Shown here: positions 4,729 to 23,200 of the stretch, piece by piece | How positions within the stretch are numbered: position 1 is the stretch's first letter | Layout of the letters: each line of letters opens with the position of its first letter | Source of the DNA: a virus | Direction: 5' to 3' (one strand) | IMG/VR virus record: IMGVR_UViG_3300037070_000699 | Coordinates: 1 to 24,198 of that record | DNA: 24,198 bases | The notes under the pieces: model-generated | Seen by the model: only the letters and a program-made list of their open reading frames with translations | The model's database searches: none | Told to the model about the DNA's origin: nothing | Translations under genes and position numbers: made by a program

Positions 4729-5138
4729 CAGGGTACGTGCGCCTGCCCGACTGGCTCACCCGTCTGTCGGCCTATATAGACGCCGTGCGGCGCTTGCCGT
4801 TCGAGGCCGGGCGCCATGACTGCGCATTGTTCGCGGCGGGCGCGGTGGCGGCAATGACCGGCAACGATCCGGCGGAAGCCTACCGGGGCCGATACGCGAC
4901 AACGCAGGACGGGCTGGCTCTCCTCCGGGCCTCGGGATCGGGCGACCACGTAGAGCGGGCCGTCGAGTTGTTTCCGATGCAGCACCCCTCTCGCGGGCAG
5001 ACGGGCGACATCGCCATCTTCGATGTCGAAACCGGCCTTGCCCTCGGGGTGGTCGTCGGCCCGCGCGTGTTCCTCGTCGGGCCGGGCGGGCTCTACACGG
5101 CCGACCTGATGGCGGCGCGCAAAGTCTTGAAGGTCTAG
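4725..5138 (+). CDS. DUF6950 / NlpC-P60-like tail protein
   Basis: A 137-aa protein. The most likely start is GTG at 4725, overlapping the preceding stop (GTGA); an upstream start at 4695 would overlap the neighbour more deeply. W10, then GRHDCALFAAG (Cys33) matches the nucleophile motif of phage NlpC/P60-like and DUF6950 proteins, which sit just before the J-like protein and may locally cut or bind peptidoglycan during DNA entry. The later motif GDIAIFD is present (94-100). Where NlpC/P60 enzymes have a catalytic His, this protein reads LALGVVVG with no His, so it may be a structural or inactive version. Confidence 0.7.
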   Translation: MTGYVRLPDWLTRLSAYIDAVRRLPFEAGRHDCALFAAGAVAAMTGNDPAEAYRGRYATTQDGLALLRASGSGDHVERAVELFPMQHPSRGQTGDIAIFDVETGLALGVVVGPRVFLVGPGGLYTADLMAARKVLKV

Positions 5139-20603: not shown

Positions 20604-20658
20604 GCGCCCTCGCCGCCCGGAATGTCCTCTCCTCCTCAGTCATCGCCCACGATAGGGG

Positions 20659-20988
20659 TCAGGCGCGCGGCATCTGCGCATCCCATGTCGCCCGGCCGTT
20701 GTCGTCACTAACGGACATGACGGCGATCCGGACCTTGCCGCGGGCGTTGCGCTCTGCGGCGACATGGAAGCGGAACTCCCCGTCGTCGCTCATGCCCACC
20801 AAGGCCGCGTCGTCGGCGTCCCACCGCCATGCGGAGGCTGATCGAAGCGACGGCGGCAGGCGTAGCACCGTCTCCGGGATCGCCCATGCAAGGGCCTCAC
20901 GGGTGCGACCCTCTGGCGAGTTGAATAACTCGGGGCTCGCCGCTCTGGCCGCGGTCAGGTCGTGTATTACCGTCTTGTGGTTCATCAT
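20659..20988 (-). CDS. Hypothetical protein, 109 aa
   Basis: A soluble 109-aa protein starting at ATG 20988 with GAGGAG 6 nt before it. It begins MMNHKTVIHDLTAARAASPE and holds a central region with LRSASAWRWDADDAALVGMS, then a beta-like stretch (FRFHVAAERNARGKVRIAVMSVSDD). There is no membrane segment and no Cys. I recognise no family. It is the last gene of the promoter-21905 row on the minus strand; the sequence just before its ribosome binding site belongs to the repeated intergenic element found after several genes here. Confidence 0.6.
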   Translation of the reverse strand: MMNHKTVIHDLTAARAASPELFNSPEGRTREALAWAIPETVLRLPPSLRSASAWRWDADDAALVGMSDDGEFRFHVAAERNARGKVRIAVMSVSDDNGRATWDAQMPRA

Positions 20989-21021
20989 CTACGTCTCCTC
21001 TATGCCCACGGTAGGGCGGGG

Positions 21022-21044
21022 CGGGTCAGGCGTCACGGGCGGCG
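21022..21044. repeat. Class-3 junction repeat, copy 1
   Basis: A 23-nt stretch identical to 21460-21482; a 16-nt core recurs at 21329-21344. On the minus strand each copy contains the stop codon of a small gene (21033-21248 here) followed by the shared spacer TGACGCCTGACCCG. Around copy 1 and after the gene ending at 20659, the spacer continues with a similar CCTA(C/T)CGTGGGC sequence. Confidence 0.75.
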
Positions 21045-21248
21045 AAGCACGGGGTTGATTTTATCACCATGGCACTCGGGGCACTCATCCCGTTGCCCCT
21101 GAACCCATGCGCTTCCGGTCCCGCCGCAGCGCGGACACGCGACCAGAGACTCTAACGCTTCCACTCGGCGCAGGAGGCCAGCGAAATCGGGCATGGTCTG
21201 CTTCTCGGCAGTAATCCGATCTTGGGTATGCTTAAGCGCGGTCTTCAC
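21033..21248 (-). CDS. Small zinc-finger protein (DnaJ-type CxxCxGxG)
   Basis: A 71-aa protein. Starts are GTG at 21248, with GGAG 8 nt upstream, or the internal Met19 (MPDF). After a short helical part (LLRRVEALESLVA) it carries CPRCGGTG (38-45) and CPECHG (56-61), a DnaJ-like pair of Cys knuckles expected to bind one zinc. This small zinc ribbon is common in phages, often of unknown role. It ends VLRRP-stop inside the 23-nt repeat shared with the gene ending at 21471. The leader holds three tandem GGAGAT/GGAGAA-type units. Confidence 0.6.
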   Translation of the reverse strand: MKTALKHTQDRITAEKQTMPDFAGLLRRVEALESLVACPRCGGTGSAWVQGQRDECPECHGDKINPVLRRP

Positions 21249-21335
21249 TTCTCCATCTCCATCTCCCTCACCCCAAAAACATATGTATCCAATGGTAGAG
21301 GCTATGCCGGCACCGCGATAGGGCGGGTCGGGTCA

Positions 21336-21351
21336 GGCGTCACGTGACGCC
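21336..21351. repeat. 16-bp perfect palindrome
   Basis: GGCGTCACGTGACGCC reads the same on both strands. It includes the stop codon of the 33-aa gene and one copy of the CGTGACGCCTGACCCG element. It could be a protein binding site or a transcript hairpin; no direct evidence favours either. Confidence 0.6.
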
Positions 21352-21441
21352 CCTAGGATACCACACCCACACCTCGACGTAGGCGGTCCCTGACGTATCG
21401 GGGACATAGTTGGGTTTGGGCACTCGGACTAGAACCCACAT
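21340..21441 (-). CDS. 33-aa mini-protein
   Basis: A short frame from ATG 21441 (minus strand) to TGA 21340-21342, preceded by GGAAGGATAGGAA, a good ribosome binding site. The product begins MWVLVRVPKPNYVPDTSG and ends VWVWYPRGVT, a sensible amphipathic beta-like peptide with many Trp, Tyr and Val. It fills the gap between two other minus-strand genes and its stop lies in the same repeated sequence that ends both neighbours. That parallel supports a real gene. Function is unknown. Confidence 0.5.
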   Translation of the reverse strand: MWVLVRVPKPNYVPDTSGTAYVEVWVWYPRGVT

Positions 21442-21459
21442 TTCCTATCCTTCCATGGT

Positions 21460-21482
21460 CGGGTCAGGCGTCACGGGCGGCG
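21460..21482. repeat. Class-3 junction repeat, copy 2
   Basis: Identical over 23 nt to 21022-21044. It covers the last codons (RRP) and stop of the gene at 21471-21683 and leads into the ribosome binding site of the 33-aa gene. Both genes bearing the 23-nt copy end in the residues RRP. Confidence 0.75.
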
Positions 21483-21683
21483 GTCCACCATACCAACTGA
21501 GACGCGCGCGAAGGCGTTGGATTTCGTCGCTTCGGGCGCGATCTGTTCCGCCGCTTCATCGAGCCACTGGAAGACCTTCAGCGCCCGACGCTGCGGCAGG
21601 TATCCGGCGGGGATGCTCACATAGCCTAAGGCCCGCGCCTTTCGGTGGCGGGCCTGACGGGCGGCGTTGGTGGGGTCGGTCAC
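21471..21683 (-). CDS. Small basic protein, 70 aa
   Basis: Best start is GTG 21683, overlapping the previous stop (GTGA); ATG 21701 would add six residues. The sequence begins VTDPTNAARQARHRKARALG, a basic N-terminus often seen in small phage or repressor-like helix proteins, followed by YVSIPAGYLPQRRALKVFQWLDEAAEQI, which reads like a ribbon-helix-helix-type pattern. DNA binding is possible, but no fold was verified. It is the second gene from the promoter at 21905-21933 and ends in the repeated sequence described at 21460. Confidence 0.6.
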   Translation of the reverse strand: MTDPTNAARQARHRKARALGYVSIPAGYLPQRRALKVFQWLDEAAEQIAPEATKSNAFARVSVGMVDRRP

Positions 21684-21880
21684 AGGCCGAGGCGCTTGCA
21701 TACGGCAGTCTCAATCTCGGTCTCGGACGCGTCGGGGTAGTAGGCGCTCATGATGGCGTCGGAGACGCTGTAGACCTCAAGGTTGTCGTCGCCCTTAGCG
21801 AACACGCGCTCTGCGATGCGGTTGAGAACCGCAAGCTCAGTGTCCGTGAAGCCTTCGGTGGTTTCGTCGGTGAAAAGCAT
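21680..21880 (-). CDS. Small acidic protein, 66 aa
   Basis: A protein starting at ATG 21880 with AAGGAG 8 nt upstream. It is acidic and helical (FTDTELAVLNRIAERVFAKG, then YSVSDAIMSAYYPDASE) with one Cys near the end. It is the first gene after the strong minus-strand promoter at 21905-21933, so it should be the most directly controlled gene of this row. There is no recognised family; a small regulator or inhibitor is conceivable but not shown. Confidence 0.65.
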   Translation of the reverse strand: MLFTDETTEGFTDTELAVLNRIAERVFAKGDDNLEVYSVSDAIMSAYYPDASETEIETAVCKRLGL

Positions 21881-21904
21881 CTCGTCTCTCCTTCTGATGA
21901 CTAA

Positions 21905-21933
21905 GGTATAACGCTGTTACGCGGTGGCGTCAA
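21905..21933 (-). promoter_or_regulatory. Sigma70-like promoter
   Basis: Read on the minus strand, TTGACG (21933-21928) and TATACC (21910-21905) are separated by exactly 17 nt. It lies in the 98-nt gap upstream of the gene at 21680-21880, with the start codon about 25 nt beyond the -10 box, and should drive the five-gene row down to 20659. Confidence 0.72.
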
Positions 21934-21956
21934 CAGAAATCGTCACGCCGTTACGC
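21911..21956. repeat. Operator-like 12-bp direct repeats at the promoter
   Basis: ACGCTGTTACGC (21911-21922) and ACGCCGTTACGC (21945-21956) differ by one base and start 34 bp apart. The first fills most of the spacer between the -35 and -10 boxes and is centred on the partial palindrome TAACGCTGTTA; the second lies just upstream of the -35 box. This placement suggests binding sites for a repressor. Confidence 0.5.
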
Positions 21957-21978
21957 CTTTTTTATCCGCGCTTGCCCG

Positions 21979-22161
21979 TCATTTCCGCACCCGTTCCACT
22001 CCCAACCGGCGCATTAGCGCAAGCCGCAAAGGGATGTTCGAAGGCCGGCGCGGGACAATTGGCGAAATCCATACCGCCCCGCCAGCCCGGAAGCGGTTGA
22101 ACCCGAGATTTCGGTTTCCGTGGATGCGATACCAGAGGTGAAAGCTGCGGGTCTCTGTCAT
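21979..22161 (-). CDS. Small basic protein, 60 aa
   Basis: A protein starting at ATG 22161, overlapping the previous stop by ATGA. It begins MTETRSFHLWYRIHGNRNLG and ends in a basic helix (LRLALMRRLGVERVRK). There are no Cys and no membrane segment. It is the last gene of the upstream minus-strand row, before the promoter gap. Its first codons (ATGACAGAGACC) resemble those of the two genes before it. Function is unknown; the strong positive charge would allow nucleic acid binding. Confidence 0.55.
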   Translation of the reverse strand: MTETRSFHLWYRIHGNRNLGFNRFRAGGAVWISPIVPRRPSNIPLRLALMRRLGVERVRK

Positions 22162-22388
22162 TTCCGTCCGGTCCCCCACTGATGACCGGCCACCTTACCG
22201 CCTTCGGCCTTGCCTGTAACCTTGACCGTTCCGCCGCGCGTGACCTCGACCGTCACCTCGCTCCATCCCATTTCACGCGCCTCCCGCAAGAGCAGGAGCA
22301 CGGCGTCGGCCTGGGTGTCGCGCTGGACGGCTTCAGTCATGGCTCGTACAGCCATCTTGGGCGTCTCGCGGGCGACGGTCTCGGTCAT
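22158..22388 (-). CDS. Small protein, 76 aa, with doubled start motif
   Basis: A protein starting at ATG 22388, overlapping the stop of the previous gene (ATGA). The N-terminus contains two similar units, MTETVARE and, 16 residues later, MTEAVQRD at an internal ATG (22340), so the first 16 residues may be the remnant of another start junction. A helix (ADAVLLLLREAREMG) and a beta-like stretch (VTVEVTRGGTVKVTGKAEGG) follow. No family is recognised. It shares its first 21 nt exactly with the gene at 22385-22582. Confidence 0.58.
   Translation of the reverse strand: MTETVARETPKMAVRAMTEAVQRDTQADAVLLLLREAREMGWSEVTVEVTRGGTVKVTGKAEGGKVAGHQWGTGRK
22368..22388. repeat. Class-1 junction repeat, copy 1
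   Basis: A 21-nt sequence identical to 22562-22582. On the minus strand it is the first seven codons (MTETVAR) of the gene at 22158-22388. The two copies start 194 bp apart, almost exactly the length of the gene lying between them. Confidence 0.8.
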
Positions 22389-22582
22389 CCGAACAAGCCT
22401 CCCTGCGCTGGCGACTCTGGCGGATAGTCGGCAAGGATGGTCTCCATGATCGCAATCTGGCGGTCGGCGAATGCCTGGGTCATCTTCCCAGCCGACACGA
22501 GGCGCGGGTAAACCCGGCGGCGCTGCTTGAGTTCGCGCTCGATGCAGGCGCGCTTTTCGGAGCGGGCGACGGTCTCGGTCAT
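22385..22582 (-). CDS. Small phage protein of the RRRVYPRLV type, 65 aa
   Basis: A protein starting at ATG 22582, overlapping the preceding stop (ATGA). The core REL.QRRRVYPRLVSAGKMTQ followed by ADRQIAIMETILADY matches a small helical protein that is widespread in alphaproteobacterial phages and of unknown function. It is flanked by two identical 21-nt sequences, one at its own start and one at the start of the next gene, so the whole gene sits between direct repeats. Confidence 0.7.
   Translation of the reverse strand: MTETVARSEKRACIERELKQRRRVYPRLVSAGKMTQAFADRQIAIMETILADYPPESPAQGGLFG
22562..22582. repeat. Class-1 junction repeat, copy 2
   Basis: Identical over 21 nt to 22368-22388. It encodes the first seven residues (MTETVAR) of the gene at 22385-22582 and contains the stop of the Lar-like gene. 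Confidence 0.8.
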
Positions 22583-22806
22583 GCGCGCATGTTCCAGAAG
22601 CCGATGACGCCCTTGACGCAATCGGCATCGCTCTCATAGTGACTGGCCGGCTCCTGCCACCACGGCGACGGGCACCCACCATCTCGGGAGCACTCGACCC
22701 GAAGGGATTTGCCGTCTGCTTCGTCCACAACCCATCCGACTGTGGCGTCTGCGCCGCAGAATGGGCAGGGCAACGTTGCGGACATCGGGATCGGCTTCTC
22801 GGTCAT
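22579..22806 (-). CDS. Lar-like restriction alleviation protein
   Basis: A 75-aa protein starting at ATG 22806 and overlapping both neighbours by ATGA. LPCPFCGADATVGWVVDE, then VECSRDGGC and the end GFWNMRA follow the pattern of the Lar restriction alleviation family: CPFCG knuckle, second Cys group, then a terminal WN-x-R. Lar of the Rac prophage lowers type I restriction and alters modification by the host EcoK system. Here it probably helps protect phage DNA, alongside the methyltransferase on the other strand. Many Lar-like zinc ribbons have not been tested, so specific activity is inferred. Confidence 0.72.
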   Translation of the reverse strand: MTEKPIPMSATLPCPFCGADATVGWVVDEADGKSLRVECSRDGGCPSPWWQEPASHYESDADCVKGVIGFWNMRA

Positions 22807-22825
22807 GCTCTGTCCTCGGGGGCGC
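22799..22825. repeat. Class-2 junction repeat, copy 1
   Basis: A 27-nt sequence matching 22990-23016 except in a three-base stretch. On the minus strand it holds the end of one gene (residues APED), its stop and the ATGACCGA start of the Lar-like gene. Confidence 0.75.
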
Positions 22826-22997
22826 GGAGGATGGCTTCGGCCAACGCTTCGATGTCAACCCAGCCTTCAATGCCGATGATGGGGCCGCCAATTTCGTCGC
22901 CATAGAGATAAACGCCGCTCTCGTCGCGCTGGCGTTTCAACTCGGCGAGGATGATCTGCGCCACCGCCCCGGGCGAGGGGTTCGGGCTATCGGTCAT
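22803..22997 (-). CDS. Small acidic protein, 64 aa
   Basis: A protein starting at ATG 22997, overlapping the previous stop by ATGA. It begins MTDSPNPSPGAVAQIILAEL and continues with YLYGDEIGGPIIGIEGWVDI and a final helix (EALAEAILRAPEDRA). It has no Cys or membrane segment. It lies exactly between two copies of a 27-nt repeat. I recognise no family with certainty, although short proteins of this pattern occur among accessory genes of proteobacterial phages. Confidence 0.6.
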   Translation of the reverse strand: MTDSPNPSPGAVAQIILAELKRQRDESGVYLYGDEIGGPIIGIEGWVDIEALAEAILRAPEDRA

Positions 22998-23016
22998 TCG
23001 CTGTCCTCGGGGGCGC
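22990..23016. repeat. Class-2 junction repeat, copy 2
   Basis: Near-identical to 22799-22825. It holds the end of the gene at 22994-23200 (also APED) and the start of the gene at 22803-22997. The copies start 191 bp apart, nearly the length of the gene between them. Confidence 0.75.
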
Positions 23017-23200
23017 AAGCAGCCTTCAGGCGCTCGAGGACGGCGGGCGTTACGTAGACGGCGCCTTTCCTCGAAATGCAGCAATGCTCGTCGTCCACGA
23101 TTTCGATTTCGCCGCTCTCGGCCAGAATTTCGGTGCCGGGGGCTACGGTGATCACGATCATGCCGCCGAGCGGGCCGCGATGCGTCGCGTCAATCGCCAT
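22994..23200 (-). CDS. Small beta-rich protein, 68 aa
   Basis: A protein starting at ATG 23200, with AGGAG 7 nt upstream inside the end of the preceding gene. It begins MAIDATHRGPLGGMIVITVA and has alternating beta-type sequence (TEILAESGEIEIVDDEHCCISRKGAVYV) before a final helix ending CAPEDSE. Earlier in-frame starts would run deep into the neighbour in a Pro/Arg-rich shadow. It overlaps both neighbours. Function is unknown. Confidence 0.58.
   Translation of the reverse strand: MAIDATHRGPLGGMIVITVAPGTEILAESGEIEIVDDEHCCISRKGAVYVTPAVLERLKAACAPEDSE

Follow-up and report, generated by a model that had tools for sequence, protein, structure and literature searches.

Short direct repeats at gene borders bracket whole mini-genes in a viral genome fragment and may reflect exchange of single small genes

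Introduction

Loss of a single gene between border repeats is known from the phages Island3 and Brujita: Island3 gene 68 (85 residues) is missing from the nearly identical Brujita (PLoS One 2011, PMC3029335), and a 60-bp sequence is common to the 3' ends of Island3 genes 67 and 68, of which Brujita keeps one recombinant copy (PMC3029335). Here we describe a similar arrangement in a 24,198-bp viral fragment (IMG/VR record IMGVR_UViG_3300037070_000699, incomplete; the whole stretch is called the window below), in which four mini-gene units are flanked by short direct repeats at gene borders, of three kinds that we call types 1, 2 and 3. As in Island3, a single small gene lies between repeats at gene ends, there with shared C-terminal codons; however, the Island3 repeats are about 60 bp long and a relative without the gene is known, whereas those of the window are 16–23 nt, of three kinds within 2 kb, and no such empty relative of the window phage was found.

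Most mosaic phage borders have no recognisable homology, and illegitimate recombination with selection is usually invoked for them (PMC3029335). Short conserved boundary sequences have been proposed at phage module borders, for homologous recombination (refs 21 and 22, as cited in PMC3029335); the window resembles these in having short homology at borders, but its types 1 and 2 are in no other IMG/VR contig. The promoter/stem-loop (PeSL) cassettes of T4-like phages, as related in PMC4503421 (Arbiol 2010, Comeau 2014), are repeats between small genes that have been tied to shuffling; according to that account they are intergenic and combine promoter and terminator, whereas the window repeats lie mostly within coding overlaps. 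Finally, the start-associated repeats (SAS) of cluster K mycobacteriophages, 13 bp long and present in 11–19 copies per genome upstream of the start, have a presumed translational role (PMC3203893). Like them, the window repeats are short and asymmetric and occur where translation of non-structural genes begins, but they number 2–3 copies and are found on or past the start, or on the stop.

Results

Border repeats exceed chance expectation

Exact direct repeats of 23, 21, 19, 16 and 16 nt were found in the region, all on minus-strand gene borders (Table 1). The 23-, 21- and 19-nt border pairs are the longest exact direct repeats of the whole window; among the three exact 16-nt pairs in the window, two are at these borders and the third (21522/11031) looks like ordinary background. 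Type 1 is exact over 21 nt (22582 vs 22388), and type 3 over 23 nt (21482 vs 21044), 19 nt (21475 vs 21344) and 16 nt (21344 vs 21037). In Markov controls, the longest exact repeat did not exceed 18 nt (third order, region, 2000 sequences) or 20 nt (fifth order, whole window, 60 sequences). Every repeat copy (7/7) overlapped a start or stop codon, in a register matching within its family, against 11–14% of random placements. With the peptide MTETVAR given and the codon usage of this phage, the codon identity of the two type 1 genes has P = 0.003; chance sharing of the peptide itself is about 1e-7 per gene pair. Given the Markov controls, the placement on borders and this codon identity, types 1 and 3 cannot be put down to composition or codon bias. 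The exact 16-nt core of type 2, taken alone, is of a length within the chance range for the whole window, and we base the case for this type on the core together with its extension and on its occurrence at two borders.

Table 1 Genes and repeat copies of the mini-gene region.
Feature	Position	Strand	Description
Gene F	22994..23200	-	68 aa, C-terminus APEDSE followed by stop
Type 2 copy 1	22990..23016	-	Gene F end, GAGGA Shine-Dalgarno-like motif, ATGA overlap, gene E start
Gene E	22803..22997	-	64 aa, exactly between the two type 2 copies
Type 2 copy 2	22799..22825	-	Gene E end, GAGGA Shine-Dalgarno-like motif, ATGA overlap, gene D start
Gene D	22579..22806	-	75 aa, Lar-like zinc-ribbon protein, weak match
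Type 1 copy 1	22562..22582	-	ATGACCGAGACCGTCGCCCGC; codons 1-7 of gene B (MTETVAR), from the start codon
Gene B	22385..22582	-	65 aa, RRRVYPRLV family (phrog_19667), between type 1 copies
Type 1 copy 2	22368..22388	-	Same 21 nt, first 7 codons of unrelated gene C
Gene C	22158..22388	-	76 aa, no match in family searches
Gene 21979-22161	21979..22161	-	Start ATGACAGAGACC (MTETRS), partial match to type 1 start
Mini-gene 21471-21701	21471..21701	-	76 aa, type 3 repeat at its end
Type 3 copy 1	21460..21482	-	CGCCGCCCGTGACGCCTGACCCG, end of gene 21471-21701 (RRP, stop) and spacer
Mini-ORF 21340-21441	21340..21441	-	33 aa, between type 3 copies 1 and 2
Type 3 copy 2	21302..21344	-	16-19 nt core, end of gene 21340-21441; gapped likeness to copy 3 downstream
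Mini-gene 21033-21248	21033..21248	-	71 aa, GTG start, zinc-ribbon-like (CxxC-CxxC); flanked by type 3 copies 2 and 3
Type 3 copy 3	21000..21044	-	End of gene 21033-21248 (RRP, stop) and spacer up to next ribosome-binding site
Weak fourth type 3 relative	20632..20665	-	CGCCTGACCC, then CCCTATCGTGGGC, after gene 20659-20988; short matches only

The three types differ in build. In type 1, the likeness ends at both edges, two bases excepted. Type 2 is composed of GCGCCCCCGAGGACAG, three variable bases and ATGACCGA, its copies having 16 exact nt within a 39-nt alignment (85% identity). Since a Shine-Dalgarno-like GAGGA lies 7–11 nt ahead of the ATG and the stop and start overlap as ATGA, type 2 contains the components of a coupled-translation junction. 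Type 3 comprises the end of a gene and its spacer; the last three codons (RRP, then stop) are also common to copies 1 and 3, and about 40 nt, with gaps, to copies 2 and 3. A perfect 16-bp palindrome (GGCGTCACGTGACGCC, 21336–21351) overlaps type 3 copy 2 and the stop of mini-ORF 21340–21441.

No consensus promoter or terminator was found on the window repeats in a scan whose scope did not extend to host-specific promoters, and their folds were not above those of shuffles. For type 3, too, neither a strong promoter or terminator nor an Rfam family or unusual fold came to light, so that a role as terminator, promoter or structured RNA is unsupported by the consensus, Rfam and folding scans. The 13-bp SAS-type element (GGGATAGGAGCCC) gave two weak matches in the window (chance mean 0.97), none of them in the region.

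Predicted recombination removes whole genes

In-silico joining of the type 1 copies removed 194 bp, equal to gene B, and that of the type 2 copies 191 bp, equal to gene E; joining of type 3 copies removed 131, 307 or 438 bp, that is, one or two units (131 bp for the first pair, or 138 if counted from another base of the copy). In every deletion product, the reading frames of the neighbours stayed intact. Two features of the Island3/Brujita type are thus present in the window: direct repeats on both sides of a whole gene, and flanks that are intact after in-silico recombination.

An initial annotation, made from the sequence, had placed these repeats on minus-strand borders, with whole small genes between them, and had named codon bias around ATGACC starts as a cause that could undo its reading. 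All the repeats were recovered at the coordinates given, types 1 and 3 reaching lengths above the Markov controls; the bracketing of whole genes was confirmed, whole units being removed with flanking frames intact; and codon bias was checked and rejected for types 1 and 3. The near-identity that it described between junction copies is exact for type 1 and looser for type 2 (the 16 exact nt in the longer alignment), and its 16–23-nt element after three genes, our type 3, does occur in three copies but is longer between copies 2 and 3 and has a weaker relative after the gene ending at 20659.

Gene B has a start of its own among its relatives

Relatives of gene B were found in viruses (16) and in bacterial genomes (9), and the family is widespread. 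None of these 25 starts with MTETVAR. At the viral loci checked, start or stop repeats flanked the gene in no case, which rules out bracketed cassettes there. Because the relatives start otherwise and, where checked, are without flanking repeats, the comparison fits a border acquired locally, with a start local to this phage or its unseen kin, and on these sequences we count the start as not ancestral to its family. One family member (L218, Bradyrhizobium retamae, near 5090) has a stop codon inside an otherwise conserved frame.

Exact scans of 2.9 million IMG/VR contigs, in which records very near the window are possibly hidden, gave no other occurrence of the type 1 21-mer or the type 2 junction; these zero matches rule out types 1 and 2 as linkers common to many phages. 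The type 3 15-mer had 59 matches in IMG/VR, all single-copy; as none was repeated, they were taken as chance and the 15-mer was rejected as a repeated linker. A close relative of the window phage was found neither in IMG/VR nor in phage records nor in 385 sampled alphaproteobacterial genomes, the queries being the endolysin, gene 21471–21701, the concatenated mini-genes (two patterns spanned artificial joins), DNA and the large tail protein (no positive control); gene exchange could therefore not be seen in this phage.

Other phages carry a repeated linker between mini-genes

We scored start-associated repeats of at least 16 nt across 80 fetched viral loci and the window, and found them to be rare. 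At L038 (6421–6655), a 41-nt repeat (AAGGAGAACGCACGATGAACGAGTACTACCGACAGGGCGCG; Shine-Dalgarno, ATGA and nine codons) stands at two adjacent unrelated mini-gene starts 194 bp apart, and a third start nearby has part of it; in L092 and L144, gene starts separated by 687 bp bear a repeat of 29 nt (AGGAGAAGAACACATGACTAAAGACGAAG), of which there is also a 17-nt third copy. At L063 and L064, AGGAGAAACAGAATGA recurs ahead of several mini-genes, and further linker contigs came from a scan for AGGAGAAACAGAATGA, as selected loci that give no frequency.

The 15-nt linker itself, GGAGAAACAGAATGA, consists of Shine-Dalgarno, spacer and overlapping stop/start, and lies between mini-genes (loci L211, L179, L204, L205, L207, L213 and L214; records G026, G031, G021, G033, G018, G024 and G019). 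In the full records, the multi-copy linker is restricted to a mini-gene cluster of 1.3–2.7 kb, and other genes use different ribosome-binding sites. Its conservation is about 1.5–2 bits over 15 nt and drops sharply on either side; copies were gathered at no more than two mismatches to the linker, so the inside level is partly by construction, but the outside drop is not. Some copies are translated as the C-terminus of the upstream gene and others follow an existing stop; conservation therefore acts at the DNA or RNA level.

Alignment blocks (blastn) between linker contigs run from linker to linker, with 42/56 block ends at most 15 nt from one, against 6.3 expected and a maximum of 16 in 5000 placements; the 56 ends exceed the independent events, because L209/L211 and L063/L179 are near-duplicate contigs. 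Contigs that are otherwise unrelated have single linker-bounded mini-genes in common, and the order of cassettes is permuted (L211, f c a g h i d b j k; L179, b l m n o c k d p; L204, q. a; L205, a q). Across the full records, the 40-kb G021 and the 84-kb G026 have a single linker-bounded mini-gene in common, at 87%, and nothing else; the sequence common to G021 and G033 is linker-bounded units only; and G019 and G024 match in one unit (90%) and over a short piece of linker. We consider these phages stronger material than the window for establishing the mechanism.

One linker-bounded unit (L064:5408–5600, equal to L211:5776–5947) is nearly devoid of coding sequence and resembles a tRNA in appearance, and in the linker copy that follows this unit the ATG has been lost (GGAGAAACAGAATTA); a tRNA was not confirmed, ARAGORN and Rfam reporting no RNA. 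RecT and ERF were also rejected as a common recombinase of the linker phages (ERF 1/10, RecT 0/10).

Setting of the mini-gene cluster

About twelve small genes run on the minus strand from 23777 to 20659, and six borders in a row (23190–23200 to 22158–22161) overlap, five of the six by ATGA. By codon frequencies the annotated frame was the best of six for all the small genes, by a narrow margin in some. Relatives of genes E and F were absent from the phage records searched; gene D matched Pfam PF14354 (E 2.7e-5, under the curated cut-off) and phrog_599 (E 7.7e-5). A sigma-70-like TTGACG, 17 nt, TATACC arrangement at 21880–21945 on the minus strand, ahead of gene 21680–21880, was seen by eye, although the consensus scan did not list it, and is likely the promoter of the cluster's second half. 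Tail genes of the window are weakly similar to those of Rhizobium, Sinorhizobium and Paracoccus phages, and the host is therefore probably an alphaproteobacterium.

Discussion

We think it probable, though well short of certain, that the border repeats stem from a common ancestral border, of which they are copies left by gain or shuffling of single mini-genes through short-homology recombination. The setting would be a translationally coupled mini-gene operon with exchange at short homologies. Because the genes overlap by ATGA, a crossover at such a border would keep the upstream stop and the downstream start and, in type 2, the Shine-Dalgarno motif as well; an inserted gene would thus end up flanked by two border copies, and later recombination between these could excise it. 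We build here on the repeats, their positions and significance, the start of gene B, the clean predicted deletions and, in other phages, mini-genes common as junction-bounded units; we infer that the process occurred in this phage, as well as its direction (gain or loss) and its enzymes. Cassette gain or loss, as the initial annotation had it, is accordingly upheld as far as whole units are bracketed and the border of gene B is counted as non-ancestral, with the mechanism a matter of inference for this phage.

Could the repeats instead be translation or expression signals (start region, coupled ribosome-binding site, stop-side element), kept alike by selection or gene conversion and without a role in exchange? 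The GAGGA of type 2 is at a proper spacing, ATGA overlaps are typical of coupling, and the cluster K repeats at starts offer a precedent with a presumed translational role (PMC3203893). However, type 1 begins at the ATG and is identical over seven codons including synonymous sites, each type has 2–3 copies while adjacent coupled genes use other sequences, and type 3 follows stops and has no strong promoter, terminator or fold, all of which makes signals alone rather unlikely in our view. Tandem duplication, with the body of one copy replaced or diverged past recognition and the duplicated border left behind, is harder still to accept: it fits adjacent copies about one gene apart (191–194 bp) and the type 1-like start of gene 21979–22161, but the bodies of B/C and E/F have no similarity visible by eye on the translations while their borders are near-identical, so that divergence alone is implausible, and replacement of the body amounts to mini-gene exchange again. 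Least credible, and very improbable, is chance similarity from a GC-rich composition and codon bias at ATGACC starts. Both ATGA overlaps and codon usage do favour MTE starts and ATGACCGA, and the type 2 core is within the chance range at this window size; yet the Markov controls fell short of 21–23 nt, identity at the synonymous sites would be improbable, every copy lies on a border, and the type 2 core extends to the 39-nt alignment at matching borders.

Several observations nevertheless count against short-homology exchange. There are just two copies of type 1 and two of type 2, both types being absent from all other IMG/VR contigs, and no relative of the window phage shows presence or absence of the bracketed genes either way. 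Searches of the 24-kb fragment for RecT and ERF identified no recombinase gene, nor, for the comparison with integrons, was a PF00589 tyrosine recombinase found in it, the fragment being incomplete. Three mechanisms may be mixed, since type 1 is without a Shine-Dalgarno region and type 3 is stop-side. In the linker phages, breakpoints at the linker are also expected from selection for intact genes alone, nearly every cluster border having a linker; for this reason, and given the near-duplicate contigs, recombination at the linker is favoured, not proven.

Two expectations of the initial annotation can be placed accordingly. Its junction sequences, to be sought beside unrelated mini-genes, were at no others in IMG/VR for types 1 and 2, whereas a different linker, GGAGAAACAGAATGA, does stand beside unrelated mini-genes in other phages, with single mini-genes common to contigs. 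Its view that exchange at the scale of one mini-gene is unusual is weakened by the published loss of Island3 gene 68 relative to Brujita (PMC3029335); the idea is not new at single-gene scale, and the unusual trait of the window is how densely its border repeats lie, three kinds of them inside 2 kb. We see the window most readily as a further case of the Island3/Brujita type, with single-gene exchange as its probable mechanism.

A broader proposal we offer only tentatively, with more doubt than confidence: phages of unrelated hosts may keep lineage-specific linkers, each a ribosome-binding site joined to an overlapping stop/start, which also serve as recombination patches and make mini-gene clusters arrays of freely interchangeable single-gene cassettes. 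The type 2 border of the window, in a probable alphaproteobacterial phage, and GGAGAAACAGAATGA would be instances. A repeated coupled-translation junction used as a border would be a simple way to swap one tiny gene with its neighbours unbroken. Mini-gene regions can hold host-takeover and anti-defence genes, although in the window there is only the weak Lar-like match; given this possible content, the turnover of mini-genes matters, and the repeat pairs make it testable.

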